Source of the DNA: Seiridium cupressi
Lineage: Eukaryota; Ascomycota; Sordariomycetes; Amphisphaeriales; Sporocadaceae
Direction of reading: 5' to 3'
DNA length: 64,000 nt
NCBI GenBank assembly: GCA_036674765.1
Contig: JARVKI010000104.1
Span: 62,001-126,000 of the forward strand
Part shown: positions 6,401-56,210 of the stretch, in pieces
Layout: each line of letters begins with the position of its first letter
Numbering within the stretch: the stretch's first letter is position 1
Notes under the pieces: generated by a model
What the model was told of the DNA's origin: nothing
Databases searched by the model: none
What the model saw: only the letters and a program-made list of their open reading frames with translations
Program-made: the position numbers and the translations under genes

Positions 6401-9400
6401 GACTGCACCGAAGCCCTTCTGGTGGATGCGCAGATAGTTAACGCCAGCGTGGAGAAGATTGAAGACCTCGCCGAATTGAATGTAGGTCTTGATGACCTCT
6501 TTGGGTAGATTGAAGACTTCTGCGATCTCCCGCATCTCGCTCGCGTTGCGGATGGGCCAGCGCCCCTGGAAGTCAGCATTATGGAGCGATAGAGAGACAG
6601 GAATCGTCTGTGGTAGCAGATAGAGGGGTGCAGCTGCGCCATGATAGTCGTTGATGTGGTAAAGATCAATCGGGAACCTTTTGATCGTTTCAGCGATGCA
6701 GGCATTCCACGCCGAATAGTAGATGGCACTCTCCAGATCATCCATGCGCGAAGGATATGGCTGCTCTTTCGATTGATGCCTGAAGATGGGCGCGTCCAGA
6801 AGCACGAATGTGATGTTCTTGTAGTAGTGGTATTGGACATCGATAATGTACTGGTTGCCGCAGATGGTGATGGCCAAGGGGTCTGCGATGGTGTCGGTTG
6901 GATAGTCGACGCCGCCAACACAAGGTACGACCCAAACGAGATCCTGGTGTCCTAGCGCCTTACTCATGAGCGCAGCCATCACACCAAGGCCGCCAATCTT
7001 GATCTTGATGTCCCAGTCCTCGATCTCATACTCCATCGTAGCGATCAGCACGGTGCGACGATGTTCGGAGTCGACGGGGGCTGGAGGTTGCTTGCGCTGA
7101 GTCACGGCAGCGAACCGCGATGGGAGAAGACCCATCAGGCCGATCTTTGACACGATACCAATTCGGTTGAACTTGACCTGGTAATAGGATTGCTTGAAGA
7201 CCCAGATCGCTAGACATCCCGTGAGAGGCGGGATCAGTGCCAACAATATCGACAGGGCTAACTGGTAAGAGCCGGAGCCAATTGGGAGAAATTTGAAGGT
7301 GTAATCCCCATCGTTGACAACAATGCGCCAGGCAAGATGGGGCATTCCCGGCCCACTCGTTATGTTTATGATGTTTTCCGACAGCGTATCTGGATGTAAC
7401 CAATCCAGAACTCCGTCGCCATCAATGTCACCATATTCCATAGTCTTATCGGCGACTCCGTCTGGGTTCATTCCCCAAACATTGATGGTGGTCTTTGTCG
7501 GCCACTCTGCGGCGAGATCAAAATGCCAAGTCCCGTTTGATCCAGGAGACATCGACGATTCCAGTCCGTTGTCATAGCCATATGAGTTCCATTCTCCAAG
7601 CACAAATGCATGGGGCCACCGTCGCATACTCTGTGTCGTATCAAGATCAGCATGCTGAACGTGATCACTGCTCGCTGCCATGCGACCCCAGTATTGGACG
7701 ATGACGTGTTCACCACTCCAGCCCTGAGCACTAGTGCCAGACCAGACTTGATCGTCCAAAGTGATGTTGGCTCCGGTATACTCTATCCACGAGCTCCATT
7801 CCGATCCCCACGTCCGCGAGTACCGCAGCAGCTCGGCTCCAGGTGCGATAGGTGAGATATACAGATCCCCAGTCGAACCGTCCCGCTGAAGGAGGTTTCG
7901 AGTGTAGTTGGCGCTGTCTGGAAACACGATGGGATTGTCGGTTCCGCCAATACGAAACATGAAGCGATCGACCGCATTCGTATATGTCCCATTGTGAGAT
8001 GAGGCATTATTGATGGTGACGGTATGGATACCGTGTGATACGCCCACGAGATTGGCTGTGAAACTCCAAGTTGTAGGAGGTTGACCGCTGAGAACCAAGT
8101 CCTCTGCCAACGTGTTGTTGCAGGTGACTGAAGAGCTGTCAAGGCTAGCGGTGGTTCCGTCTTGCGTTGTAGAGTTGACTGTTAGCCGGTGTGTGACGGA
8201 GCTGCAATCCATTGGAGCCGAGAAGCGAATTTCTATTGGGACAGTCTGCTGCTGGCCAACGTCGACAAGGGATACAATGCGAGCGTCGTGAGAGGGTATT
8301 GTTCCTGTGATCGATGGAGAAGGGCCCATGAAAGCGTCGACAGGTACAAACGCCTTGTAGCCCCACGCCGGCATGGTCAGATTGGACAAGCAACCGGAAA
8401 GTCCCTGGGCTCCTTGGCGACTATACGCGACTGCGGAGTGACTAAGAGTAAGCTCATCATATGGGTAAAACAAGTTTTTGACAGTAGTGTTGGAGAGAAA
8501 CGGCGCCACTAGAGCGGTCCCTGCGTTGCTGCAGTCAAAATCGAAATTTCGGGTTCTGTTTTCGTTGCTGAAAACGAGCCACACTCCCTGGTCTCCTTGG
8601 GAGCCATGGAGATGCTGCACTCCATCGATCCCCGAACGATAGACACTCCAAATACCAGTCGGTGATGGAGTACCAAGGCTTCCCTCTAGATAAACGTCGG
8701 TGGTCTGGTTTGATAGGGCTTCAAGGTTAAAGCCATCGTTGAGCACAGGGTATTGCTGTCTCAACTCGTACATCCGTTTGATGATGTTGCGTGCTGGATG
8801 CGACGGGTCTTTGTGATCCAAGCTAGCACTGATGTCGTTGCAACCATTGCGTGCCGAGTCGAGTGGAAAGTTCACATAGCCACTATCGTCAAGCTTGTAA
8901 CAGCCATGAAGCTGCCAGCCGCGGTTTGAGCTCATTGGCTGGCGTCCGTAAACGTAATTGGACGTCGTGCTGTCAAGAAGGTAGAAGCTCTGCTCTTCGC
9001 CCCAATACAGGGCTGGTGCTCCGGGCAGTTCTAGGACTGTGATAAATTGACCGAGCATTTGGCGCTGGAGTCCACTTTCGATAGCTGGCCAGCGAAACAC
9101 GTCTTGGCTTGTTGTACCGAACAGATGGCGGGGGTCGAACTCCCCGGTGTTGACATTGATCATGTCGTATTGCAACGTCATGTTCTGCCAGACCTTGATG
9201 AAATCCACACCGTGATGGCCAATGTCGCCATCCAATCTGTATCAAACTAATCAGCATTTCATCGATATATTCAAAGGAGATCAACATACCCGAGGAACCT
9301 CGTCAGTGCCCCGTGGACTGCATAGTTGAACCCTGGCCCATCAAGACCATTCATCCCGACATCGCGAACATACGCACTATCTACAGACGCGTTGGATTTG

Positions 9401-10570
9401 GTGATAGCCTCGGTAAGATTTGTCAAGTACTGATCGGCTTGTCGCCCTCGACCGACGTATATCGCAGCTTGAGGTTCTGTTCCGACGACTTCGCCGATTA
9501 TCAAGAAGTTCTCTTTTCCGTATTCCCTTGCACACTCTCGTTGATAAGTGGTGAACTCTGACATGGCGTCAACACTGGTTTGGAGCCCCTTATCCATCCT
9601 GAAGCCATCGATATCCAACATGGCAATTTGTATGCAAGAGAAATGCTTGATCTTCGAAAGCACGCCGCTTCTCCATTCTCGAAGTCTGTCCTGCACTGAC
9701 GCGTACTTGGAAAGCTGAGTCTCGTACACTGCATGACGAATTAGCTAATAAACTCATGGTCAGTCATACATGCCTACCAGGATAGTGCCCTGTGCTCCCC
9801 AGATCACCATAGAACGAAAATTCGCTGTCTCGACATCGCGTTTCGTTGGCCAACATATAAGTCATGGGATACCCGTCATCGTCCCAGAACCGAGGATAGA
9901 CGCATGATTCATTGACCGCATATCCGGGTTCGAAGTCAAAATACCTTCGTTCGGACTTCCAGACATAGTCATATTCATCCCAACTGAAGGGGGTTGTCTC
10001 ATTCTGGTGCCCTTGGAAGCCGAGGAGATCGCCCATGGTTGACATGGTGTTGTCGAGCAAAATATACATATCGCGGTCGTGGATGGCGTCTATGAGGGCT
10101 CTCCAGTCATCGATGGTACCATGATGGCCATCCAGCAGGGTAAAGTCCAGAGGACTGTATCCATCCGCCATCCATGGCTGGTTGATGAAGGGGCTTCCCA
10201 TGATGTAAATGGCCTTGATGCCCATTCCGTGGATATAATCCAGGTCGTTCATAAGGCCCAGGACATCTCCCCCGAAACGGAACTGGTTGCTCATCCAGTC
10301 ATGCTCGAACGCTGTGCCGTTCGCCTCATCATTGGAAGGATCACCATTGGCGTACCGGTCAAGAGACACAGTGTAGAAGGGGAACCGCCAGTTATCCGGG
10401 GAGCTGGTATAGCTGTGGCCTTCCCATTCACCCCAGTAATCAAGTGGATTCGTAGCAGTGCCGTTCTGATTGAGGTTGTAATCCGAGTGAGATGCATCGT
10501 AGCGTAGCGCCGAGGTGACACCAGCCAAGGTGCATAAGAGAAGCCAACATCTACCGCCATAGGTCATCAT
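3495..10570 (-). CDS. ags: Cell wall alpha-1,3-glucan synthase
   Basis: Polymerises the alpha-1,3-glucan of the fungal cell wall at the plasma membrane. Four exons: 10570-9778, 9728-9290, 9236-6176 and 6119-3495; 6918 coding bases, 2305 aa, a little under the roughly 2400 aa usual for the family. Domains in order: signal peptide (about 1-20, hydrophobic run LLLCTLAGVTSA); extracellular GH13 amylase-like domain (to about 560) with the nucleophile region DGFRMDKG in exon 2; an all-beta stretch; one membrane span near 1065-1085; a cytosolic GT5 starch/glycogen-synthase-like domain from about 1150 (KIGGLGVM nucleotide-sugar loop; EPFGLVAVE, the E-x7-E motif); a Ser/Pro-rich linker; then a polytopic C-terminus from about 1870, thought to export the glucan. 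Two adjacent ATGs begin the frame. It stands alone: the amylase genes that flank agsB in some Aspergillus species are absent. Which paralogue it is cannot be told from sequence alone. Confidence 0.97.
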
Positions 10571-13500
10571 GATTAGCGCTACCCTGAATCGTAGGCAACA
10601 GGGTCAGAAGCAACGACACAGGCCCCTATAGATAGAAAATCTTGAGACGGCGTGTCACGCCGTGCTTCGGCCGCTCGATATTGCCGGCCATATCAGTCAG
10701 CTTTCGGAATGGTTGTCCACTGCCACAAAATATGGAATCCGATATCAAGACCGGAAGTTGCATACTGTACAAGGATCTGGACCTTATTCTCGTCACCGAA
10801 GATCGCTATTTCGGGCGATGCAGACATATCGCTGCATGTTCGATGAGGATATCATGCGTAGCAAGCCACATGCAGTAATGCGTATGCAGGTTATGAGGTC
10901 CGTTTCGATCAGTTCCGGAATGGCTCGCCATGAGACGGACGAGGCCTGACTGCTTTCGGAGTGAAGCGACTACTGAGATATTATAATACAGTTTGATTAA
11001 GCCCCGATGGTGGCAACTTACCGAGCCGGACCGAGAGGGACTACTAGAGAAGATCGATCTTCGGCTCAAGATCCGCTGGCTTCACTGGGAGACTTGAATG
11101 GCGTGGGGGTCCCTTGATTCAATCATCAATCAAGTAGTGCTTAAGCTCTTATCTTGAGAACTTGGCGAGGTTCCGTATGTTGCTTCACTTTGGGTGAGCT
11201 CCACCAGCATCCGAGCTGTATGCCATTTGCAGTCCGCCGGGGGGGCTGAGAGTGGCGGTCGGCCAGCCACCACCCAGCTGCTAGCACCTTGTTCTGGCAA
11301 GATATGCCAAAACTGGGTTATTGTTTACTTGGCCTATGTCCGCTTGTGGCTATCCGTGGCAGTCCTCGACGTATAGAAACATTCCACTATATCTTGGCAG
11401 CCCAGCATGGTTGGATGACGGGTAACCGTCCATGCTAGGTCTATCCGCAAGATTTGTCTGACAGCGCTACCTGAACTCTCCAGCTCGGTATGACTTGGAG
11501 TCTGTATAAACACGGACAAATGTCAATCGATACTAATTGGTAGAGGCTGTCATGGGCTGTGATGTGTTGAGATTGTTGCAGGGTCTCGCGACTCAAGCGC
11601 ACCGCTGGACAAGCCGTTTGGCAAGTTCCCAGTTGATTTCTTTAACGTGTCCTGCTAATGCGACACCAGCTTCATGTACAAATTCAGTCGCTCTGGAGCC
11701 GAGCGTGCCCAGCAATCAAACAGCTGTGAGTATGCCGTTTTATCTGATGTTCAAGTATCTGGTTTAACACGTGCGTGCACAGTGGTATCTCGAAGCAATC
11801 GGATACGGCGGGGAGCGCCAATGTAGATGCACCGGACTTTGGAAGATCAGGAACAAGCAATGTATAGCTAAAGGAGCATGATGAACGCGGCTGTTGAACG
11901 TTGTTTGACTACTGCGACCATGTCCAAATTGGAACCGAGTCCGCGTCAGGTTTTCGGCAAACCTTTCATCAGTGCGATAGTGTCCGTTCGTATGGGCGGG
12001 TACCTAGACAATGCCGATGCGTGCCTACAGTAGCGCTCTAGTGCTAGCAGCTTAGTGCTCAGTGCTAACGTTTAACTAGGTATTATGAGCGGCTGGGCGG
12101 AGTAGCGGCGCCTCACCATTGCGAAGCACGCATTGGCCGGAGCCAACCACTGATACTCAGGCTGGGGTGGGATGCAGATAATGCTTAAATATACATATTA
12201 AGGTGTTTGCGCCATTTTGTATGGGAGTGCGAGGTCCAAGAAGCGCAAGCGGCAGCTACGAGGGTCTGGTCGTACAAAGAAGAAAACGGAGAGGAAAGAG
12301 CGAGAGCAAGAGACTTCGCCGCGACATCATGACGTGTGTCCAAGGTCGCTGCAGCGACGCCACTGCCGCGCACGCTCCGGCGCATCAAGCATGCCAACTG
12401 CCTTGAGGGTTGGAGCATGCGGGCTGAGATGTACTTGTGCATCTCGCTCGCATGTATCGGGAGGACATGGAATTGCGAACTTGTAGATGAGACACGTGTC
12501 CGTGATCGTAGGTATATTAGTGCGTGAGCCTCATCCTTCACTAGTCTAAAACGTAGTCGCTTGACAGCTTGAGTCGCTGTGTTCGGTCGTATAGGTAGCT
12601 TAAGGTAGTTTGCACTCCGGGGCAATGGTGACTTTGAAACGCTAGGCACATAACACAGCGCACCTACATTGACCTGGCAGGAAGCCAACCGCGTATCATA
12701 AGAGATTGCAGAGTGGACCAGTCAGTCCAAATTCTTATGAAACATTACTTGAGATCAAAGTCGCTTTGTTGGCCGTGTTGCTAGTCTAGTGGATAGCCAG
12801 TGGTTACCCCCCGCGCAATGCGAGGATGCATTGAGAACATGGGCCCACAGTCAACGCCCAAGAACGCCATACTTGAAAAGGGAATCGGGAATCTTGGGGC
12901 ACAAACCTAGTAGTCTAGGACCCCTGGAACTTTTGACCAATCGAGTGGTGGCACTACACGGTGCCTCGTCGCTACCGTGTCGCTAAATTGAACGGTAAAT
13001 TGAGCTCGTTCTTTATTGTACATTGTAAGTCCGGGATACAAAAAGGCACGGCCTGATCTCTCAGCGGCTATGAGCGACTATGAGACGTTCGATGAGTCTG
13101 CGCCCCTCTTTTCGTTCAATGCGTTCCTTCTTAGGTCTCCAAGTTCTTCTGGCTCTCGCCTGATACAAACGTTTAGCGAATGGACGACCCGGCTGTCCGC
13201 GATCATCGCAGAAGCGACTCGAGATTTACGCGTATGAGTCATACCTAGACCTGATGAAGGCTTGCATCAACGACATCCTGACTATGAGCCTCGATAACAC
13301 GCTGTTCTGAGGTCAGCGCCAATTCGTGTGCTGTTGTCAGCTCATTGTGATGGATTTTTACCTGGCGTATGGCAGAAACCCGCGTCTTGAGTGGATTCAG
13401 GCACGATATACTTTGGCTTCGCCACAGCACCTTGGTTGAGAAAACATGGCGGCAAACGTACGCCAAGCACACCACTTCAAAGACACTAAAGCATGGGAGA

Positions 13501-23845: not shown

Positions 23846-25815
23846 TAACATGATTAATTCCGAGAGAACAAAACAATTGTACAGATTGCCTGTAATATAT
23901 GTATAGGATAGATGCTTGAATAATCGGAGTATGGTATGAAGCGGGGGTCACCGGGCCAAGGATTGTTGGCAGGACTATTGGACGCATAGTTGAGCGCCCT
24001 AACGATGATTAATGAGATACCACACTACCATAGCAATGGACTTATGTTCAGGGAGACTCTCCTGAGAGCTTGAAGTCCTGTAAAGGACAGACGCCCCCAG
24101 TCATCAACGAAGTGAGGACAGCTGTCGCTGATCGGTGACTTCTTCAAACATCACATGCCTTTCGACTAATACTGGATTGGACTGAATTACTAGGCATGAC
24201 GCTAAACCACACTTGAACAAATATAATAAGCAGGGGCTCCCAGCGATGCTTAGTCATGGGTGTGAGTACGGTGAAGCAATGGAGACTACAAGACTTTCGT
24301 ACGCTATGTGGGTGGGGTTTCACCGGTCAAGCTAAAAGATATTGGTGCAACCAAAATATGGAATATATTTCAAAGGACGTGGAGACAGGAGTATTCGACA
24401 CGATATGCAATAGAGGTGCGCTAAATGGAGGCCGCGACCAGTGTTCGTGTCATTTAGCATTAGTGAGCATGGAAAGCTAACAAAGCACGCATCCAGAAGC
24501 TGCGATGGCTGGCTTTGGAGGTGTCAAAGATACAAATTAGACGTATCCCCAATTGAGTGGTATTCAATGACGGTCCATGGTCATAATCACGGCAGTGAAT
24601 GCCTGTGAGACACCTGTCGCGAACGAATAAGAGTATATATCCCCCTCGTTTGCATTTATTGTCGGCTCGATGTATAGGCCCAATGTGCAGAGTTTCCTCA
24701 AAGCTTAGCAAGTTTGCAACTAACGTGAAGGGCCTGGTATGGCTCCGGCGGAAATGGTCCTCTCATCTCTTTATTTTTTCCTGGTCGGCTGCTGACTTGG
24801 TCGTACAGCTGGATTAAAGTTTCAAGCCAATGGACGATCTCCAGCGCACACATGCGTCTTGCAGATTTCTCCAAAACCCGCGCCATGCGGTCAGAAGCCT
24901 CCCAAATCACACTTCAAGTTTTTCGCATGAGCCTGCTTGAACGCAGGCGTGATCATCAATTGCATATCAATAATCATCTTTCACCCGGCAATGACCTTAC
25001 TTGAAGGCATTGCAACACGAGAGTACAGTACCAACGCGGGCTGGATAATTTATTTTCAATGCGGTTCTTGCTCTCTTTGCTAGGGCTTTGATTGGCTAAA
25101 GATTGTGCTGCCTGAATGTCAGACGCGAATGTAGCAGCTGCGCTGACGCAGCGCACAGATAGCGTGAAACCACTAGTAAGGGATGAGACCCGGGCCGAAG
25201 GGATTGATACAGTACCAATGCAGCGCTGAGACAGCGCTGAGACAGCGCCGCGAAGGTGCGGCGCTGGCTCAGCGCCTGCGCCGCGGATATTAAGGGGCGG
25301 CAACCCATATTGGTTGAAGGGCAGAGATCAGTCTGTATCCTAACTATCAAGAACTATCATCATCTTCGTGGCCTTTCACTCTGTTGCATAACCCATCTGA
25401 CACTGAATCACTAATTTCCTTCCTGCATGACTGCATTGGGGTTGTCGGCCTTCCTAGCAGCTACCACTCGCAGCTGTCGGTCCGTTGACCCGCGCATTTC
25501 CATGTGGGAGGCAGGACAGAAGTGGTGTCATGTTCTTTCTGCGATCGACCATCGTTTGGCCGCAAGTCTATGGCTATTAGGTCGGATATAAAGTAAAATG
25601 TGCTTTTTATGCCTGAATTTACGAGCTTAGATCCGCCCGAAGGGCGTGCCATACAACAGGTACCTGAGAACGTGTATAATACTCGATTCCTTCTCCCATT
25701 TCTCAAGCTCTCAATTTGATTATATTCTCGAGTGTCATCTGTCCATCATATCAGAGTATGCTCAATCGGAAGCGATAGTACGGTAATCGATCTCACGGAG
25801 TTTCTGTGATTCGAC
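23846..25815. other. Intergenic region upstream of the dynamin-like gene
   Basis: Two kilobases without a credible gene. The frame 24974-25303 (minus) is explained by a GC-rich repetitive patch, annotated at 25139-25275, not by protein conservation. A near-repeat of ACAGTACCAA(C/T)GC occurs at about 25026 and 25209. Confidence 0.5.
25139..25275. repeat. Cluster of GCGCTG-NNN-CAGCGC palindromes
   Basis: Four interrupted palindromes GCGCTG-N3-CAGCGC occur within 137 bp: 25140-25154 (spacer ACG, with one further pairing base on each side), 25223-25237 and 25234-25248 (spacer AGA, overlapping), and 25261-25275 (spacer GCT). The sequence around them is moderate in GC. They lie about 540-680 bp upstream of the dynamin-like ATG. 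They could be tandem binding sites for a dimeric factor, or a hairpin-rich mobile remnant. Confidence 0.8.
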
Positions 25816-28321
25816 ATGGTACTCACCACATTCCAATCAGAAGCCTTGGATGGCCTCTGTTCCAAGGAACACCTTGATCTGATGGACTCTATCGACAGTC
25901 TCCGCTCTCAAGGAATCAGCCATCTAATTTCTCTCCCTCAGATCATTGTTTGTGGAGACCAATCTTCTGGTAAAAGCTCTGTGCTTGAGGCCATATCTGG
26001 TGTATCCTTCCCCGTCAAGAGTAACCTCAGTACACGGTTCCCAACTGAACTCGTCTTGCGGCGGACTTCTCAGATTGGTGCTACTGTTTCGATTGTGCCC
26101 CATCACTCTAGAATCGACTCAGAGAAAGAAGCTCTTTCCAGTTTCCATGAAGAGTTGGAAACTTTCGAAGGCCTGGCCAACCTGATCGAGACTGCCAAAT
26201 CTGCAATGGGTATCAGCACCCACGGCAAAGCCTTTGCGAAAGATCTTCTGCGCGTTGAAATATCCGGACCGGACCGACCACATCTCACGATCGTGGATTT
26301 GCCTGGCCTCATACACTCGCAGACGAAGAATCAATCGGCATCAGACGTTGGTTTGATACAAGAGGTGGTTGACTCTTATATGAGGGAGCCGCGAAGCATC
26401 ATCCTGGCTGTTGTTTCAGCCAAGAGTGATTTTGCAAACCAGGTGGTACTGAAGCTAGCGCGTTCTGTTGACACTAGTGGTAACCGTACACTCGGAGTTA
26501 TTACCAAGCCGGATACATTGCATCCTGGCTCGGAGAGCGAGTCACTTTATGTGTCTCTCGCACGGAACCAGGAAGTGGAGTTTCGGCTAGGTTGGCACGT
26601 GTTGAGAAACTCGGACTCTGAAGCGGGCCATGGGACACTGGCTACTCGCGATCTCAAGGAGTTGGAGTTTTTCAGCCAAGGAATCTGGAACGAACTTCCT
26701 GAGTCGATTTTGGGGATTGACCATTTGCGCAGCCGGTTGAGCAGAGTGCTCCTCAAACATATCATGACAGAGTTGCCTAGCCTGATCGACGAGATCGAGG
26801 TGAAGCGTAGCGCTTGCGAAGAAAAGGTCAGGAAGCTCGGCCAGCCTCGCACAACACTGCTTGAGCAGCAGCTCCACCTCATCACCATCGGCGAGTCATT
26901 CCAGAGACTCGTTCAGAGTGCGGTCGATGGGAACTGGAATGACCCATTCTTCGAAGACGCAGAGTCTCAAACTGGTTATCGTCGTCGTATCCGGGCAGTT
27001 GTTCAAAACCTCAATGATAACTTCGCCAAGGATCTGTCTACACGCGGTCACCATCGCCAGGTCACGGGTTCTGGACATATGCCTTCTCCGAGGCACTGCG
27101 TTGCCATTACCCGCGATGAATTCATCGATCATGTGCAGTACAAGATGAGCAGGTCTCGGGGCAGACAGCTCCCTGGACTATTTGATCCTATGACCGTGGC
27201 CGATCTGTTTCGCGACCAAGCAAGCCCATGGGAGAACCTAGCCCGCCAACATGTTCGCAGCGCATAGAAAGCGTGCCGGACTTTCCTTGAAGATGTCATC
27301 GACCATGTGGCTGATGTGGCGACAGCGATAGCCACCAGGCAAAAGATCGTGCAGCCTGCAATGGACGCTATACTAGCAGAGCTTGAAGTGAAAACAGGAG
27401 ACGCCCTGCAGCCTCATCAGACCGTCCACTCTATCACTTACAACCACTACTTCACTAGCACACTTCAAAGCATTCGAAAGGGGAGGGAGAAAGATAGGAT
27501 TACTCGAGAACTACAGAAGTTCTTTGGATCCAACGAACTCAATCCTTATTACGGAAGCATAGACATTGACAACCTGGCCAAAGTATTAATCGATGACACC
27601 TCTGAGCCAGACATGCATCGATTTGCCGCCTCACAAGCCCTCGACCACATGTATGCTTACTATGAGGTACGAGCGATTTCATAAGAACCACTTGATGGTT
27701 GAATATGAGCTTTTGCTGACCCAGCCCTGGTTGTAGGTAGCCATGAAGCGGTTTCTTGACGGAATTGCTGTTGAGGTTATTGAGGCCGTCCTTATATCCG
27801 CTCTGCCAGCCATTTTCTCTCCTATCAAGGTATACAAAATGACAACTGATGACATCGCTTCTATCGCCGGGGAACCCGATGAGACCCAGATACAAAGGGA
27901 TCAACTTACGAGGCAGCTCAAGGTGCTTGCCAGCGGCGCTGAAACCTGCAAGCAGTTTGCTAGCACACAATTTAGTGGTAGGTACATGATCCCTGATCAA
28001 GCAACACACGCACCGCGGTTGCTAATTCATCCGCTAGCAGGGAACAGTGAAGCAGCAGACAATGAGCTGGATGATTTTAACCTAAGTGACATTGAAGGAG
28101 GAAGTGCTGTCGAACCTAATTCTTCGCATATCGGCAACGCAGTACATTCCCGGCCGCCATCACCTCCATCGGGAGCGGAAGAGACATTATTAACAGAGGT
28201 GGAGCCATCCATACCTGGTAATAACGAGTCCGATGAACTACCCGATGACTATAGGCCGCGGGTAAAAGGTAAAAGGAACAAAAAGAAAAAATCCACGAGT
28301 GCGTTTACGTGGGATGAATGA
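25816..28321 (+). pseudogene. Dynamin-like GTPase with one in-frame stop
   Basis: Large GTPase of the dynamin superfamily, which remodels membranes or acts in fungal antiviral/Mx-like roles. Two exons, 25816-27666 and 27737-28321; 2436 bases, 811 codons. GTPase motifs are all present: P-loop GDQSSGKSS (47-55), switch I TRFPTELVLRR (about 73-83), DLPG (161-164) and TKPD (230-233). The middle/stalk region follows, then a GTPase-effector-type region (ALDHMYAYYEVAMKRF across the intron) and a charged, Lys-rich tail ending FTWDE. The reading frame is broken once: codon 484 is TAG (27265-27267), inside a stretch (HVRSA-stop-KACRTFLEDV) where relatives are expected to have Trp. The frame continues open for 327 codons afterwards with good family sequence, so this is a recent nonsense change (TGG to TAG), a read-through site, or a base-call error. 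The truncated product would keep the GTPase domain but lose the effector domain. Confidence 0.88.
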
Positions 28322-32741: not shown

Positions 32742-33885
32742 GGTTCTGCATTGGTGCGACACTAAAATGTTCGATTTGCGATGAATGTTTGATCCCTCGC
32801 AGTTCACCGAAGCCGGTGCTACCATGAGCAACCCCTCTTGAGATGGATCGCGTCAGTCGCTCATAATGTACTCAGCGGCCGTGGTCCACTATAACGGCTG
32901 CCCCGCAGCAAATCCTCAGTGAGGGTCCAGCAGGAGCTCCACAGCACATAGCTGCCCACCAACGGGCATCGCCGGCCAGCCCGAGAGTACAATGTAAAAA
33001 TATCGATCTCTAGGGCATGCACATAGGTATCATGAAGATCATCATTCAAGACCTGCACCCATTCGTTTTACCTCCTGATGACTGTGATGGCTCCCACCAC
33101 GGTGTCCATCCGGCGGAGCCTGTCCACGTGTCCTGTAGGCCATTTTAGTCAGACAACGCAGTGGGATGATGGAGCATCGGCCTCGATCTTGCCCCATCAC
33201 CACCATAACCACCCTCAACTCACCGATTCTATGCTCAGATCATCAAAGAATCGGAACCTCCACCATCGCGTCACACGTTGCATGCAATTCTTCGTAGTAG
33301 CGCCGCGCCGTGCTTAAAGTAGCCACTCAACCCCAATATGTGCTACTGTATGTACCTGTATGTCTACATACATATATATAGGTAGAGAAACTGTACTGAA
33401 GTGTTGTTGAGGTCAATTACGACCATTCATATGGCAATAGCTACACCAGTGATAGCGCGTAATGCGATAACCCGTGATCACTGCCCCCAAGGTCCTCTGC
33501 TTACCCATGCAGCCTAAGCAAGAAGGCTAAGTCGCCAGGAACCCTCCGTGCAACCCTCAATTTACCCAGGCTCCAATCACCTTCATTTGCTGACCTCAGC
33601 TAGCCACCGCGACTCATTTAATTGGCCTGTTGGACATTTCAGCCGCCTGCCAGGTCTCACCCCAACTGTTGTGCCTCTACATTTTGGCACACAGCCCAAT
33701 CGAGATCTGACATGGCTGTGGCTCAGGCTTATGGGATGCCGAAATGATGGAAGCATAAATGACCAAAACCTGTGCCACCTCTTTAGCCTTATAAGATGAT
33801 GGGGGGTCGAGCTGGGCGTTTCAAGTCAGTCTTCACCCGGCTATGAACATTTGGGCAGAATCTTTAGCTGGCTACAACAATCAAC
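32742..33885. other. Divergent intergenic region
   Basis: About 1.1 kb between the divergent oxidase pseudogene and the DUF2235 gene. A TATA-like TTATAAG lies at about 33788-33794, some 90 bp upstream of the DUF2235 ATG. A short TATATATAG run lies near 33373. No credible ORF. Confidence 0.5.
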
Positions 33886-35702
33886 ATGGGCTCCCTCGAA
33901 CAAAACAATCCAATCCTAACGATACCAAAGCGGATCATAATCTGCTGCGATGGCACCTGGCAGTCGTCTGTGTCCAACATCAAGAACGTACCCTCGAATG
34001 TCACACGCCTAGCAAGGGCAATTGCGCGCATAGGCACGGATTCCGATGGGAAGGTATGGCAACAAATCGTGCATTACGATGCTGGCATTGGCACAGGTGA
34101 AATCAGCGAAGAAGATAGAATCCGTCAAGGCAGTTTCGGTATTGGCTTCGTGGGTAATGTGATTGAAGCCTACAACTTTATCGTGCTCAACTACGCACCT
34201 GGGGACCAGATCTTCTGCTTTGGTTTCTCAAGAGGGGCGTACACGGCACGTGCAGTGGCGGGTCTCGTCAATGATATCGGTGTGATCTCCCCAAGAGACC
34301 TCCAGGATTTCCCGGATTTATATCTACTCTACCAGAACAACAAGGATAGCCATGGATTCAGAAAGTCCAGACATTACAGAGAGTGGGTAAACGGCGCTCT
34401 TTCCGAAGCCGACTCCCGCGCAGATAGGATCGCACCGCAATCGATGCGATACGGAAAGTCGTCTCATGCCGATGCACCGGAGGCGTCGAGAGTCGTACAA
34501 GCTGTCGTTGTCTTCGATACGGTTGGGAGCCTCGGAATACCTGATGTGTCATGGCTCAAAGGCCACCTTAATTGGCTCGAAAAATGCCTAGGCATTCCCT
34601 CGTTTGGCTTCCACAACGTTGCTCTTAGCCCTTGTAAGTACCTGAGCACTGCCACCCCATTAGGCAGGTTCCGACTCACTGATTCTCAGACATACGGCAT
34701 GCGTTCCACGCACTTTCGTTGGACGAGCATCGCGCACCATTCTCACCTACTCTTTGGCATTACCCTGGCGATGGAGAGCTTTCTACGAAGAAGCCGAGAG
34801 AATCACTAGATGAAGTTCAAAAGGATTGGGAGAAGATCAAGTCAGACCCTCGGTCGACACCGCGGCAGAAATCAGACGCCTGGGCCGAGTTGATTGACTG
34901 TGAGATGTATGATGAGCTCAATGGAACCGACTCTGAACTGCTTCAAGTATGGTTCCCCGGGTTTCACGACAACGCCGGTGGAGGAAGCACTGATCCGTTG
35001 AAGGATCGCAAGGGCGACTTCGAACGTGAGTGCCATCTATCGTAGGTTCTGGTTAGCCTGGTACTAACATGTTCAGAGATTGCACTCATTTCATTCGCCT
35101 GGATGTGTGAACAAATAGCCCCATATCTTCAGCTCGATGAGGACCTCCTGAGCTTAGCCAGGAACTCAGTGCAAGATCGATATGATCTCATCAACTCATC
35201 CTTACATCCACTGACTCCATCCAATATTGGGGACTGGCTGACGATAGAGGCAAGCAGCTTCATCGCTAAAGTAGAAGCTAACCACTCGAATTCAAGAAAG
35301 GTCTCTCGAGAAATCCAATATGGATGGGCAACCGGGCCCGTTATCGATTCGTTCAAAGGGATCATGTTGCTCGCAGGCTCGAAGACAAGGACGCCGGGAC
35401 AGTATGTTAAGGACAAGTCCAATGGCGTCAGGTTAGGCAAGACCAACGAGATGATCCACCCTACAGTACAGTTTCGGATGGAGAAGAGGTCAGATTACAG
35501 ACCTGAAGCGTTGAAAGGATTCACGCGCCGACAAGACGGTCGTGCTGGGTTTGAGTGGGAGAGCGGGAGCGTCACAGTTCCAGAGTATCTCGTCAGATCA
35601 GGAGACGCATTCTCGAGGTATGTCGCGGATCAAGATAGGCCTGAGCAGGAATATCGGGCGACCGAGTTCCTTCATGAGATAGACAGGATTGTTGAGGCAT
35701 GA
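33886..35702 (+). CDS. DUF2235 alpha/beta-hydrolase-like protein
   Basis: Protein of the DUF2235 family, common in fungi and related in fold to the bacterial Tle1 type VI phospholipase effectors. Three exons: 33886-34633, 34690-35025 and 35077-35702; 1710 bases, 569 aa. Family marks: IIICCDGTW (17-25), the nucleophile elbow GFSRGAYTAR (Ser115), VVFDTVGSLGIPD with a likely catalytic Asp, HALSLDEHR after the first intron, and VWFPGFHDNAGGG, where the His should complete the triad. There is no signal peptide or membrane span, so it is probably intracellular. The C-terminal 150 residues are less conserved. It lies between two damaged genes yet shows no lesion, which argues that it is still under selection. 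The natural lipid or other substrate is unknown. Confidence 0.95.
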
Positions 35703-36069: not shown

Positions 36070-37818
36070 CTAATATATGTATTCGAAGTTGGGGTTTTCC
36101 CTGTCAGTAAGGTCTTTGAACGCAGTTTGGTTCAGGCCTTCCAGCTCCCCATTCTGTCGCATCTGCTCCCTGGTCTTCTCCTTGCGTTTATTCTCCCACA
36201 TGAATGCGTATCGGAAGACCAGGAACAAACCAAGCTCAATAAAGTTCGCTACCAACAGCGATCCAATGCCTAAGCCGTATCTTGGCGCTTGGTCTGATTT
36301 GTAGAAGAAGGGACTAGCGATATTGCCGATGCAACCTCCAAACCAGATCATCCCCGCTATGATCATCTTCTTAGATTGGCCCCCGGTGTTTCCGATCACC
36401 ATAGACAAGGTATTTATGAAAGAGGTTTGGTAGGAGCCGGTCAAGTAACTGTGAGGTCAAAAATTAGTTATCGCCCGAATCAAGTACTTCCCAGCACTTA
36501 CAAGCAGATAAGCCTGCCGATGTACGCATCCGGAGGAGCGAGAAGAAAACCTAGACCTCCTGCGATGGTCGGAAGCATGAAGATGACACCAACCAAGGTG
36601 CGAGAGTTCGACACTTGTTATTGAAGGCTTAGGCTTCGATACCTTGCACACCGCACTTATAGGCATTCCCCAAGGAGTACTCATCGTCATATGGATCGGC
36701 CTGGGCTCACTGTGTAATAAGTATATGCCCAAGAAAAGTTCGAGATACCTCCGTTCGGAACGTTGCCCACGAAGCCCAAGAGGCAGAAAAGCCAAGTCTT
36801 GTAGTCGAGATAGGCTTCTCTGACTTGGCCCCAGTTGATATACCTTTGTTCAACACCAGTTTGGTTTTGTCGCATACGTGCAATCATCATCAGACGCTCA
36901 TCATGACTGAAGCCATGGAACGTTGCCGGCGAATTGGGTAGAAGTATGAAGAGAAAGACACCCCAAAGTGCGCAACACGCGCCCACAATCAGAAATTCGT
37001 AGCGCCAGGATTGAAGCGCACCCTTTATATGTCCAATGCCGTAGCCTAAGAGTTTCTTCACATCAGTTGACCATATCACCGCGTAAAGAGAGGCTCGCAC
37101 GAACCAATGAGGCCGCCGCCGGCGACACCTATGCCGTTGAAGGAATACCATATGGCGATACGGATGGGCTGCTCAGATCGGGTATAGTACATGCTTGTGA
37201 GGAGCATGAATGCAGGGTCGGCAATTGCTTCGAAGGCACCAGAAAATACTCTCAAAGCGGCAAGGCTGGCGAAGTTCTGGGCAACGGCCTGCACCATCAG
37301 TAGTGCTCCCCACATGAAAATGTTGGCGGCGAGACACCAGCCCGGTGGGCAACGCTGCATGATCAAGTTTGACGGTATAGCCCAGACAAGCCAGCCGAAG
37401 TAGAAGAGAGACGACAGCCAAGAATATCCTTGAGTGTTAAGGGCCAAGTCAGTCTTGATGCCGAAGATGGCGGCGTAGGAAAGTGTAGTCTTGTCAACAT
37501 ACTATTGCGGCTGTGGTCAGCAAACCAGAAATTGTTAAAGTTAACAGGGGAGAAAGCGTGATAACTCACGTAAAAGAAATAACAGATGCCAAGTAATGGC
37601 AGGATTCTATAGTCAAGCTTTCGCCGGAGCTTGGCCTCCGCTACCTTGTCGATGTGTTCATCTGTGGGGTAATGTACAAGTGCCTCGGCGTATACCTCGC
37701 TATGTGGCTGGCGAATGTCACGGATAACATCTCCATTCTTAGTTTGGCTGATATCCTCAGTATAGGTCTCGTACCAGATATCTGGATCTTGGGCCTTGAT
37801 CTGCCCCGTATCAGACAT
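36070..37818 (-). pseudogene. Dal5-type MFS transporter broken by internal inversion
   Basis: Anion:cation-symporter MFS transporter (allantoate/nicotinate permease type). Exons: 37818-37570, 37501-37105, 37045-36502 and 36448-36070; 1569 bases, a whole number of codons (522 aa). Family marks: LDYRILPLLGICYFFY before the first intron, YVDKTTLSYAAIFGIKTDL after it, LRVFSGAFEAIADPAF, the NVPNGGISNF loop, TLVGVIFMLPTIAGGLGFL, YLTGSYQTSF and NTGGQSKKM. Exon 3 fails: after NGGISNF the minus strand reads nonsense and stops at 36687. The missing membrane helix is instead found on the plus strand at 36610-36732, reading STLVIEGLGFDTLHT and IPQGVLIVIWIGLG, flanked by correct minus-strand transporter sequence. 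Turning those 123 bp round rejoins the gene in frame on both sides. As it stands the product would be truncated after about half the helices. Confidence 0.93.
36610..36732 (+). other. Inverted 123-bp coding segment inside the MFS gene
   Basis: This segment encodes, on the plus strand, a transporter helix that belongs to the minus-strand gene around it. Its length (123 bp, 41 codons) and both edges fit the reading frame of the gene if reversed. Edges are set by a 3-base inverted match (TTC/GAA); a nearby TCGA palindrome at each side allows the break points to shift by up to about 12 bp. No base seems lost or gained. There is no recombinase gene or long inverted repeat next to it. Confidence 0.88.
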
Positions 37819-38562: not shown

Positions 38563-40343
38563 TTATTCAACCAGATTTACCTTGTAGACGTTTGTTCCCC
38601 AAGCTTCATCCTCATAGCCTTCATGTCTGAACCGAGTGCATGTCAAAGTGGCCCACGTGCCTGTATCGCTGACCACCATGTTTGCCTTTACCTGGTGGAA
38701 TCTCGACTTCTCTGCTACATATTCACGAGGTCGAACAGAACTCAATGCCGCCTCGAAGCGCTCTTTAGGCTCTTTGCTGGCTGATTCCCGATCAGCAGCC
38801 CAGTCACCTTCTTCCAATGCCATGACTTTTGATGCAATGCGACCTAGAAGAGGACCACTCCAAATCAGCTCAGCATGAGGTGATCGCAGGATTAAGAATA
38901 TTGCGCGGCGGCGCAAACTCGGATTGCGACATTTCAGCGCTGTGTAGTAGAGTGCAGGGAATGTGCCCATCTCGATGGAGAAAGATGGTCCAATGCCAGA
39001 CATACTTGGCAGTGAAGTATCGTGCTCAAGATAGCCCACAATCTTCCATATATGCTCAACTTGAGAAATGAGTGATGCAAAACCAGGGATGAACGCGTCA
39101 AAAGTGATCTCTCTTCTGTGGGACAGGCATGTGCCAAGGATGATGCTGGCCATAGTGTAGTAAATCTTGAAGATCCGAAGTCCTAGATGGTCATGGATTG
39201 AGCAATCAGCGAACACGGTCTTCATGGAGGACTGGTAGGTCGCTCTCCAAGCTGACATGGTAGTTTGGAGGTTGGCCTGCCACTGTATGAGATCTGGAGG
39301 CATAAGTGATAAGTCCGGTTCCAGTGCATCGGCCCTGTCCCTGAGCTTCAAAACCGACGTCGTTAAAGCTTCAAGAGCTTGTCTTGCACTTCTGATGGAA
39401 TCAAACTGTGGTGGTATAGTAAATCCATGATCGCCCTCGAACATGGTGTCCACCCTGTCCATTTCTGGTAGATTCTGGCCGAGGAGATTTAATTGCATCG
39501 TGAGTCTCGCGAAGGCCTCTTTCACATACTCGTCAGCTAAGCTGGACTTGTGGCCACCCATCTGATGCCTCTGAAGTCGTTGCATGAGAATGATTGCATA
39601 GCGATAATGGCTCTCCATCATTTCTTGCTGGCCATTCATCATTTCCAAGCAAACGAAGAGGAAACAAGTCATGGCTGCAGCTCTGATAGAATGGATGTGT
39701 CCCCTTTTGTAAGTATACTGTTGAGCTCTCGGATAGCTTTGTTGTACTACTGCAACTTAAAAAGGTGTTGATCCTGTGCAACAGCACTCTGAGTGGCGGT
39801 GTTCCCCAAAACCCGAGCGTGAAGCTTTTGGAGATAAATCCGGTATGCGGAGCCCACAGCGACGGCAGCGTGAAATATTACAGGCTCCAGTACGCTAGCC
39901 TGGATCAGGAGGTGGTCCCAGAATTTCGACTTGAATGTCCCAGATATCTTGAGTGAGGGACATTTGCAGAAGAATTCGAAGCCCATCTTCTCCTCCTCCG
40001 TGCTCCATACCATGGCAACAGCAGGTGTGTATTGTGTGAGTACAGCGGATCTCAGGTCACCGTGTCCGGCGGTGTGGGAACGAATGCGCATGGACCCGCC
40101 TCCCCAGACGCCATATCCATCGCATAATCTACCCGAGTGTGTGCATTTGAGACATGTTGGCCGGGTTTCATCACACTTTACTCGTCGAAGTCTGATTCTT
40201 TCGTCAGCTATACCAAAATTATGCGGGAGTTGCCGCCTAAGAGTGGGGAAATGGTCCATGACATGACGAATAAAATAGAGATGCACGTACTTACAAGTCC
40301 GACAGCCGGATTTAACATGCGATCGACGCTTGGATGTTTGCAT
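38563..40343 (-). pseudogene. Zn2Cys6 transcription factor, damaged or re-spliced
   Basis: Fungal binuclear zinc cluster regulator. Exon 1 is 40343-40291, intron 40290-40192, then a frame from 40191. The DNA-binding domain is intact: C-RT-C-KLRRVK-C-DETRPT-C-LK-C-THSGRL-C, with the intron falling just after the second Cys. The rest fits the DUF3468/fungal_trans_2 type, ending with KVNLVE at 38563. The frame is broken near 39750: TTGCAG is followed by TAG (39749-39747) where family members have Gln in a (Q)QYNKAIREL motif, and about 60 bases later one base is missing before AAAMTCFLFVCLE. Alternatively a 68-nt GTAGTA...CAG intron (39750-39683) would skip both lesions and rejoin the frame exactly (537 aa), losing some 23 conserved residues. 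Divergently placed to the aldo-keto reductase, which may be its target. Confidence 0.8.
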
Positions 40344-41320
40344 TTTGTAGCTCAACCCAGCCCGCCAAGCTCAAGTCGAAAATCACAGGCCAGCGCCGAA
40401 CTGGATAGTAGTGCCACAGTAGCCAAAGTCTCCTCTACCAGATCTCGTTTTGCACGCCGAGGATGGGACTTCCACTACGACAAGGCGTCTCAGTGTGGGT
40501 CGAAGGCGGTAAACGAGGCTCCGGTACCAGTGCTACAACAGTCTCAGATCATGAGCACTGCCGAGTTCAAAGGATTGCGGAGTCTCACAGATTCACGTCA
40601 CGCGCGTGAAGGTGAGCGTAGGTAGTCGTTCAGGGCTGACATGCATGAGTCGGAGATGGCGGATATTTTGTGGTGGAGAAGGAATGGAGACTTCGGGAAG
40701 GCTGGTCTCTCATTGGAGAATCAATTAAGGCGGTAGTGATAAGATCAAGCTAAGCAGAATTCACAAGCTGACTAATGTCTCTGCAGATGCTAACAGCTAC
40801 AAGTATATAGGAATAAATTTGAACCGCTGTCGAGTATCCTACCAAATATCCGGTGTAAAAAATGGCATAATCGCATACGCTTTACCGTATTTAGTTTAAG
40901 TGCTCGTTAAGATACCTCCCAGGGGTTCAAAATTATCACCATGCATTGTACTGCGGGGTCAATCGAGAGGGTCCCATACATAGGAATTCACCTCTGAACA
41001 GCGACCAGCAATGATCATAACTGATGAAAATGGATCCATCGGGTTGCTATGCTTCTGATTGGTTGTGATGCGTGGGACCTGTAGTGTCAAGACCCTGAGT
41101 CGTCATGCTCAGACAGCTGATGCGACACGGATATACGGGTGGACAAAAAGAGAATTCTTCGACCTTGTATCTCGTAATTAAAGTAGGATGTTCTTTACTG
41201 AATATATAAAGTCCAGCGCATCGTTCTTTACGACTATTAATGTCCTAAGAAACTCCAACATCTTAAAAACACCTTATTACTAAGTTGAAACTTCTTATAT
41301 CAACATACCTCATCAACACT
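40344..41320. promoter_or_regulatory. Bidirectional region between regulator and reductase
   Basis: Nearly 1 kb between divergent start codons. A TATA box TATATAAA lies at 41203-41210, 111 bp upstream of the reductase ATG. No other gene. Possible binding sites for the divergent regulator cannot be assigned with confidence. Confidence 0.55.
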
Positions 41321-51356: not shown

Positions 51357-53047
51357 CTACATTCTATGTACATCACTATTCTTAGACCACCTCCTAAACG
51401 ATTTTCCCTTGTAGTAGAAGAGGACTCCAAAAAGGCACCACAAAAGAGTGAGTGATCCGTTCGTCATGATCGGAGGTATGTAGCCGGCAGATTCGACCCA
51501 GACAGTGATGAACTTGCTGAAACCATAACCCCAAACGTTCTTGTTCACAGTAACTGCGACGAAGAGACTGCCCGCAACGGGCTTGTAGCTGTCCACTGCA
51601 TAGGTTGAAACAATACCTGGAATCGCAGTTACCTGGATTCCAGCGCAGGTGTAACCGATGATGACGATTGCCTGCCAGGGCCATCTCTTTTCATACCCGA
51701 TGCTGACAATGATGTTTCCGAGGAACATGATGATGACGTATGGAATCAACGCGATGAGTCGCATCTCTGGTTCACGAATCCCTCGGTTCCTCTTCGTTAG
51801 ATAGTTGGAGACCCAATCTGAAAATGGTCCAGCAGTAGCCAGGCCCATCATTGCCCCCACCAGAACGGCGAAATTGGTAAACCCGATGCTTTGGCTACTC
51901 CAGTTGTACGGGGGCGCAGCAAAAGCTTGAGACTGGGTGAGGTTGATTGTCAAGAAGCATGAGCAGCTCCAGCTGACAACAAATGCTGCGAATTCAACGA
52001 TCGGAAAGGCGTGAAGCTTCCAGGGCACCCAAACGTCGAGAACAACGCTCCTGAGAGATCTCGGACCAGGTGCAACGAGGCCCCACTGGGCTTTGCTGGG
52101 ATAGCCGCGACCGAGCCAAGGATCCTGGTCCGCTGTCTGGGTGGTGCTGATCTTGTTTTCGTCGCCGGTTAACCCTTGCTCTAGTCTCTCACTTTGTTCC
52201 TCGGCCACTCCCTTCTCCGGTACCTGTGGGTTGGAAGTAGTCGAGGCTGTGTATGCATTGAGCTCACTAGGGCGCGTCTGCCACTTAGTCTCCGGGAACA
52301 TGGAAATATTCATAACAACAGACAAAGCGAGGAGGGCAGTGTTCAACCACCAGAAGTTCCTCCAGCCAACATGGGCCGACATGGCACCGGATATGATTGG
52401 GCCCACCATCAGCGAGCCCATGTATACCACCCAATACAACGTATTCCATTTGCCGCGATCGTGGAGGAAGAAAATATCGGCGATAACCGCTGGTTGGATG
52501 GTTTCTGCAGGACCTCCGCCGATACCGCTCAGGCTATCAATCATTAGACAAGGCTTGGTGTGCAATGCCGAGAGTCAACTTACACGCAAGCGCCTATGAA
52601 ACTGCCATATGTCGTGGCCTTCGCGCGCCAAATGGAGGATGCCAGACAGACAAGCTGAGAGGCAATATAAACTGGTCGGCGGCCGAGGGATGTGCTAATA
52701 GGTACCCTGGCTTGGATGAGTATTGTTATTCACGGCAAAGGGAGTCGTGGATAATCGTACCAAAGAAAGTTGCTAAAGCCAAGGACGAGAATCGCGACGC
52801 CAGTAAATTGTACTGCATCGGCCAGCGTGCAGTCGAAAGCTTCAATGTAATCTCCGAACATAGGCGCCAAAGAGAGTGGGCCGAAGCCCTGCATGAACGT
52901 GGTCAGACTAGATGCGACGATGGCGCTGAGTTTCCATTTCAGCGACCAGTTGAGAGGATCATGCGGGTCCGCGGATGGTTGAGGAACCAAAACTCGGCCG
53001 TTGTTGCCACTGCTTTTGACGAAGTGATGTTCTCCTACATCGGTCAT
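51357..53047 (-). CDS. MFS transporter (DHA1-like, 12 TM)
   Basis: Proton-coupled transporter of the fungal multidrug/DHA1-like MFS group. Exons 53047-52761, 52706-52584 and 52533-51357; 1587 bases, 528 aa, normal length. Family marks: HDPLNWSLKWKLS just before the first helix, GFGPLSLAPMF, STSLGRRPVY (loop 2-3 motif A-like), GIGGGPAETIQPAVIADI in helix 5 (a motif C-like glycine pattern), a long charged central loop (about 245-325), and HRM at the end. Both introns interrupt the first third. It is intact, in contrast to the Dal5-type transporter 14 kb to the left. Its place at the left edge of the right-hand gene run suggests export or import of a substrate or product of the neighbouring FMO and dioxygenase; this is inference only. 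Confidence 0.95.
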
Positions 53048-54377: not shown

Positions 54378-56210
54378 CTACAAAGGTATGACATCTTGCT
54401 TTCTTGTCATGGTCATCCATGCCCTTACCATGCCTGCATAGTCATGAGGTGTGTATCGGTGAAAGATCTCGCTCAAGATCCCACCAGTTCTATATTTTCG
54501 GTACTTCTCCAAGCCCAGATCGTCTGCGAGGAGGTCCATATACGCCAGACAATCGAAAGCAAGATCGGGGCACCTCTCTCCAGCCCCGCCAGCACAATGC
54601 GGGTGCCGAACTCTCGTATACTCATTATGAAGAACTGTTTCATAATGTACCCTTACATTTTCGAGAGTTTCTGGTTTGAGGTTTGCCAGTTCGTTCGTGA
54701 AAAAAGCAGTGATCCACAGAGCCTGCAGTTGAGCAATCATGGTGGCGTGCAATGCGATGTGTGCTCCAATAAATGCGATATCTCTTTGGCAGAGGAGCCT
54801 GTCGTTGGATGGTACCATGAAGCGATATAAATAAAATCGATGAACTGCGTTAACATGTAAAGTAGGAATCTCGAGCTCCGATTGTTTGCTACCTGGGGGT
54901 AAACTCCTCTTTGGTTGGTAGCAAATTGCTGGTAGCTTGGTAAAGAGCTCCGTGCGTGCCTGATTAAGCAGATTCAAACCGTCAGGAGAAGGTCCCTCTA
55001 ATCCCAGGGCTGAATCGATGGCTGGAGGCAAGAAATTAATTGGGGGTTTTGCGTCCCAGCCAGTGCAGCACACAATAGCATCTGTCGCGAGATTTGCTCT
55101 ATTTGACAGGTATACCGCTTTCTCGGATAGTCGTTCAACATCAGCTATTTGGATCTTAATCTTGCCTGCTCGGACGAGGTCGAACCAAAGGCTGTCGTAA
55201 TTATGTATACTCAACGAGTTACCCATCCAAAACGGACTGACCCAGGGTTTGAACTTCTGTGTCTCCGGGTGATCATCGTACAGAAAGGCCCAGTGTGCGG
55301 AATATTCGATCATTTGCCAGTATCTGGCAACAATCTTCCGTCCCAGCCAGGTTCCATGGAGTGCACAGCGTAGCCAGCCCGTCGGACCAGTCCGTTCGCT
55401 CCAGATACATAGGTCAAACCAGGTGGAAACCCTCGTGGATGCTAGCCGTTGGATGGATATCTTCAGGGGGGAGAAAAAGACAGGCCAGAGCCAACTTGGG
55501 CCACCGCCCGATGGTCGAACGACCATTTGTACACGCGAGCCCTTGTTTGCTAGCAAATAGCAAGTGTCCCACGCAGACTTATTTCCCCCAACAACAACTA
55601 CCGTCTCCGCTTTGCCCAGATCTTGGGCCCGTTCTCTCAGCTCTTTGGCATGGAAAATATCTCCTTCAAACATATCAGCCCCTTTGAACGCCGGCATCAA
55701 CGGCTCAGATGTGAGCCCAGCAGCAATGACCAATCTATTAGCAAGGATATCACAAATTGGAGGCTGAAGCTGCATTCGCTGCGCAGGAGTCACTTTCAGC
55801 AGCCATTCACCATTTCCAAGAAGCTCTGCAGATTCAAGCTTTTGGCCTAGCCGCACCCGTGAGCTCAAGTCGAAATGTTCACAAAACTGAACGAGGTACT
55901 CATGCACGGCTTCACCCGGAATGTGTCTACCAGGCTTAACTCCAAATTTCTCGGGAGTCATAGGGAAATCAGAGAACTCATAAGTGCCAAGGAGGTTACT
56001 GGTCTTGAGTCCAGGATACAATCGCTCTTTGGCCCAGGGGCCACCCACAGATGCGGCTGAATCAATGATCAACATGGAACAGTTCGGATGGACTTCCAAG
56101 AAGGTCTTCGCCATGGCTAGACCATGCCACCCTGAAACAATTAGCCCGTGTGAGCGTACTTAACTATAGCGCTTACCAGCTCCAACGATCACAATTACGA
56201 ATCGTTGCAT
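54378..56210 (-). CDS. Flavin-containing monooxygenase-like protein
   Basis: Predicted class B flavoprotein monooxygenase using FAD and NADPH. Exons 56210-56177 and 56131-54378; 1788 bases, 595 aa. The tiny first exon completes the FAD fold: MQRFVIVIVGAGWHGLAMAK, with GxGxxG split by the intron. The NADPH fold is VVVVGGNKSAWDTCYLL. The FMO/BVMO fingerprint region reads FEGDIFHAKEL (about 166-176): the F-x-G-x3-H part is present but the final aromatic residue (Tyr/Phe in FMOs, Trp in Baeyer-Villiger enzymes) is Leu, so the reaction type is unclear. DAIVCCTGWD is the usual ATG-like motif. The C-terminus is long and ends RKQDVIPL. Without the first exon the protein would start inside the FAD loop, which fixes the model. 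An alpha/beta hydrolase lies two genes away, a common partner of Baeyer-Villiger enzymes. Confidence 0.93.

Follow-up and report, generated by a model that had tools for sequence, protein, structure and literature searches.

Microinversions in which a segment is exchanged for its own reverse complement, mostly without any further change, have been described between human and chimpanzee, with 59 pure events of 17-33 bp, all with flanking inverted repeats and 11% of them with only 3-nt inverted repeats per flank (PMC8755829). In fungi, ten IR spacer inversion events, with 2-5 bp substitutions, were found in Saccharomyces cerevisiae coding sequence between arms of >9 bp and put down to template switching (PMC8604942). 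Much larger events are known from Drosophila, with 143 microinversions of 46 bp to 4,006 bp (40 to 4,408 bp in the other species), none of the 143 overlapping an exon of the host gene, while 7 do overlap an exon that belongs to a nested or overlapping gene (PMC1779558). In great apes, the longest switched stretch among gold-standard template-switch events is 128 nt, with a median of 12, and 5.5% of the events preserve length (PMC7954356).

Here we describe a locus of Seiridium cupressi at which about 123 bp of the third exon of a transporter gene probably underwent an event of this kind. As in the human and chimpanzee cases, the segment reads as the reverse complement of the one expected at its place. 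The short inverted repeats of those cases have their inner edges at the boundaries, a position in which this locus offers a candidate pair of 3 bp. It differs in being about 123 bp rather than 17-33 bp, in being coding and fungal, and in an edge homology that does not exceed chance. Similarly to the S. cerevisiae events, it is small and sits in fungal coding sequence, whereas no arms of >9 bp pair its edges. Its 123 bp fall within the Drosophila size range, but it lies wholly within an exon. For its size the segment has known counterparts, although few template-switch events are as long. A sequence-only reading of this DNA had called such inversions seldom reported in fungi, which does not hold for much smaller events, given the ten in S. 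cerevisiae (PMC8604942). For events of this size it may stand: no fungal coding inversion as large was among the matches listed in the open-licence literature, as represented by titles and the starts of abstracts, which falls short of proving absence. We regard the event as a known kind of mutation whose size and place are somewhat unusual.

The window, by which we mean the whole 64,000-nt stretch of DNA analysed, corresponds to positions 62001-126000 of contig C104 (JARVKI010000104.1) in a 45.36-Mb draft genome of 228 contigs. The MFS gene occupies 37818-36070 of the window on the minus strand, with four exons and three GT-AG introns; as sequenced, start to stop comprises 522 codon positions in a single phase. 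The features are as follows, with the basis of each assignment in brackets.

37570-37818, minus strand: exon 1, with the ATG of the MFS gene at 37818-37816 (frame and splice sites)
37502-37569, minus strand: intron 1, 68 nt, GTGAGT...CAATAG
37105-37501, minus strand: exon 2 (frame)
37046-37104, minus strand: intron 2, 59 nt, GTTCGT...TCTTAG
36502-37045, minus strand: exon 3, which contains the inverted segment (frame; MFS_1 over the X-masked protein)
36449-36501, minus strand: intron 3, 53 nt, GTAAGT...TCACAG
36070-36448, minus strand: exon 4, C-terminus and stop, phase kept (frame)
36610-36732, plus strand: inverted segment, a piece of the MFS gene readable on the plus strand only (paralogue profile)
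36607-36609, no strand: left edge TTC, 3-bp inverted homology with 36733-36735
36733-36735, no strand: right edge GAA

With the doubtful stretch masked by X, the protein matches MFS_1 over residues 76-474 (E 7.2e-24), and residues 69-256 weakly resemble D-galactonate transport chains. The analysis thus supports MFS_1; the name Dal5-like, in line with the Dal5-type label of the sequence-only reading, is presumably appropriate. With Dal5-like MFS transporters the gene shares the MFS_1 domain and many relatives in the genome, and it differs from them in a frame cut after 334 codons. The family is large, with 62 genome matches, two of which are this gene and several of which count one gene repeatedly.

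Beside the transporter, a plus-strand frame at 33868-34806 carries a Tle1-like catalytic domain (E 7.3e-58) and another at 35046-35699 has no family match; the two may well belong to one gene. Upstream, on the minus strand, lie a frame with a fungal Zn(2)-Cys(6) domain at 39750-40370 (Zn_clus, E 7.2e-5) and one without a family match at 38566-39756. Elsewhere in the window we observe a Dynamin-family GTPase frame (25810-27264, plus strand; Dynamin_N E 9e-38), a further MFS_1 frame (51360-52574, minus strand; E 4.3e-18) and a flavin-binding monooxygenase-like frame (54381-56159, minus strand; Pyr_redox_3 E 1.5e-8, FMO-like E 3.2e-5). The long minus-strand frames at 3498-10603 look like what we take to be an alpha-1,3-glucan synthase.

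Read on the minus strand, the transporter runs from MSDTG to NGGISNF, continues with 15 odd residues and four stops, and resumes at NSRTLVGV in the same phase, down to NPNFEYIY. The two flanks are in phase because any inversion keeps phase. On the plus strand, positions 36611-36730 are stop-free and read TLVIEGLGFDTLHTALIGIPQGVLIVIWIGLGSLCNKYMP. By analogy with the MFS fold, from which the helix numbers are taken, the inverted segment is likely to encode the end of TM7, a loop and TM8. Hydropathy, calculated for the N part and the segment only, reveals one stretch, scoring 1.98 over 19 residues. DNA folding around the segment is ordinary (z -0.48).

Comparison with paralogues from the same genome, a source chosen to avoid circularity, places the segment more firmly. 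The paralogue set comprises 30 loci, some of which are two loci of one gene; 18 matches span the place of the segment and 12 do not. Spanning matches run through masked positions, and spanning alone is thus no proof that a piece is present. Leaving out L004, which is the same place as L009, we built a profile from 17 paralogue pieces, whose genes share 22-39% identity with the query when masked positions are scored as mismatches. All 17 are free of stops and align as one family. Among the 2608 stop-free frames of at least 15 residues in the window, this profile matches the plus-strand frame 36587-36820 with E 3.6e-11, while the runner-up reaches E 2. A profile that includes the flanks gives E 3.5e-10 for the plus strand and E 0.35 for the minus frame, the latter through 11 flank positions only. 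At the protein level, the missing piece of the transporter therefore sits between the flanks, at the expected place and in reverse-complement orientation. The claim of the sequence-only reading that 36610-36732 reads correctly on the plus strand alone is borne out by both the two-strand reading and the paralogue profile. Its further statement that no base was gained or lost is supported at the codon level only, through the spacing of paralogues at 22-39% protein identity. Searched against the whole genome, the plus-strand piece finds itself and two paralogue places (E 1.3e-4 and 4.7e-4), both of which sit on the strand of their own gene. As for orthologues, none was found in the viral contigs searched, and prokaryote genome contigs gave 47 pattern matches, 0 of them confirmed.

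The positions of the edges are fixed to about one codon. An F, two further residues and then L or I is the pattern in 13 of the 17 paralogue pieces (the other four differ), and of the two edge pairs originally named, TTC/GAA fits this spacing. The other, the palindrome TCGA at 36608-36611 and 36740-36743, would shift the conserved F and its spacing, and we rejected it. An edge homology of at least 3 bp occurs in 4.9% of random 123-bp pairs from the window, and in 35% when three bases of slack in phase are allowed. Since the 3-bp homology is near chance, it favours no mechanism over another. No inverted arms of at least 6 nt were found that pair the two edges. Further 4-bp pairs occur near the segment, not at its edges. 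Inverted arms of 11 nt and 91% identity, at 36628-36638 and 36770-36780, were discarded as lying off the edges; they probably reflect codon similarity, both encoding LGF in the sense of the gene.

In the minus frame as sequenced, the first of the four stops within the segment comes after 334 codons, and the open frame ends there rather than running through the entire MFS fold. The protein would thus lack most of the fold's second half, and we infer that the sequenced isolate carries a null allele. Outside the segment, by contrast with its interior, neither a stop nor a frameshift is present in about 480 codons, and the event would therefore be young if the gene has been unconstrained since. 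The share of single changes that make a stop is about 4.3% and about 4.1% in the flanking parts (318 and 162 codons, the latter including the stop). Assuming no selection afterwards, neutral divergence since the event would be below about 5% from stops only, and below about 1.5% when indels, taken to arise at 10% of the substitution rate, are included.

Could the present arrangement be functional, with a spliced isoform dropping the inverted piece? A search around the segment for GT-AG pairs 40-260 nt apart did return four that restore an open frame to the native stop. These share a common donor, GTATCT, and would be 135-198 nt long as against 53-68 nt for the real introns. A CTRAY site is present in all three real introns, 19-21 nt from the intron end, and in none of the four candidates, so that within the 40-260 nt limits no intron able to restore the frame combines GT-AG ends with a CTRAY branch site. 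Each candidate would, moreover, remove a likely membrane helix. A working spliced product is thus unlikely, and we consider a functional arrangement of this sort highly improbable. We give as little credence to the idea that the plus-strand piece was copied in reverse from another family member and replaced the original. The size of the family (62 matches, with the redundancy noted above) would offer donors, and the segment is closer to two other paralogues than those genes are overall: identity is 52% over 27 residues and 50% over 32 residues, while over longer pieces it falls to 23% and 31%. We count this also as a point against the microinversion, though the sub-stretches concerned are conserved. 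However, a recent copy should show a protein identity far above 52%, the segment has no other DNA match in the genome, and its 17 of 41 residues identical to the piece of L006, the best paralogue, equal that gene's 41% over a longer piece.

The leading rival, unlikely but deserving some weight, is an artefact of assembly, gap filling or a library chimera, the organism itself having the ordinary orientation. The genome is a draft in 228 contigs, and the gene shows no lesion other than the inversion, as expected of an artefact. On the other hand, the window is free of Ns, and no second DNA copy of the segment was found in 45.36 Mb. An edge homology of 3 bp would be far below what overlap-based joining needs, and, with no arms of 6 nt or more pairing the edges, ambiguity in the assembly graph is unlikely. 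The same edges speak against a reversible on/off switch, in which the segment would flip to turn the transporter on or off. Its length and phase are the same in either orientation, which suits a switch but is true of any inversion. Inverted recombination sites are lacking at the edges, where the inverted homology is 3 bp only, with no arms of at least 6 nt, and the assembly holds one orientation and one copy. A 123-bp loop would, in addition, be shorter than the DNA persistence length of about 145 bp quoted in PMC8755829. Nothing in these observations favours the switch that the sequence-only reading had offered as one option, and we find it barely credible.

We therefore consider it probable, judging from the sequence, that a single recent microinversion in exon 3, essentially pure and about 123 bp long, disabled one MFS gene of the sequenced isolate. 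About 123 bp of the exon would have been turned around and the rest of the gene left readable. Faulty replication or break repair, using almost no homology, is the most likely origin, by two template switches, by microhomology-mediated break-induced replication or by the joining of two close breaks; among these three routes we make no choice. The first two are the routes set out in PMC8755829, with the break that starts microhomology-mediated break-induced replication lying inside the segment; its authors consider it unlikely that events of about 20 nt arise from two close breaks. At 123 bp this objection would carry less force. Of the earlier interpretation, a small coding inversion, clean at the codon level, is supported, and a one-off product of break repair or template switching fits. 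Such a product is not separable from the joining of two breaks, because edge homology of this size is close to random expectation (0.049 exact and 0.35 with slack). We count this, together with the 4-bp pairs nearby, also against the microinversion itself.

If real, this would be a clear case of a coding microinversion, recognisable in one genome by itself since both strands still read well. As a lone example in one member of a large set of related MFS genes, it carries little biological weight. A broader proposition, which we put forward as doubtful, is that filamentous fungi may make pure inversions the size of an exon, with near-zero homology, at a frequency sufficient to create null alleles of redundant transporter genes, in which case this allele would be a fresh example that is still segregating in the species. 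Gene finders are likely to miscall a gene of this sort, and scanning broken family members for pieces on the opposite strand could give a fungal rate for mutations of this kind.
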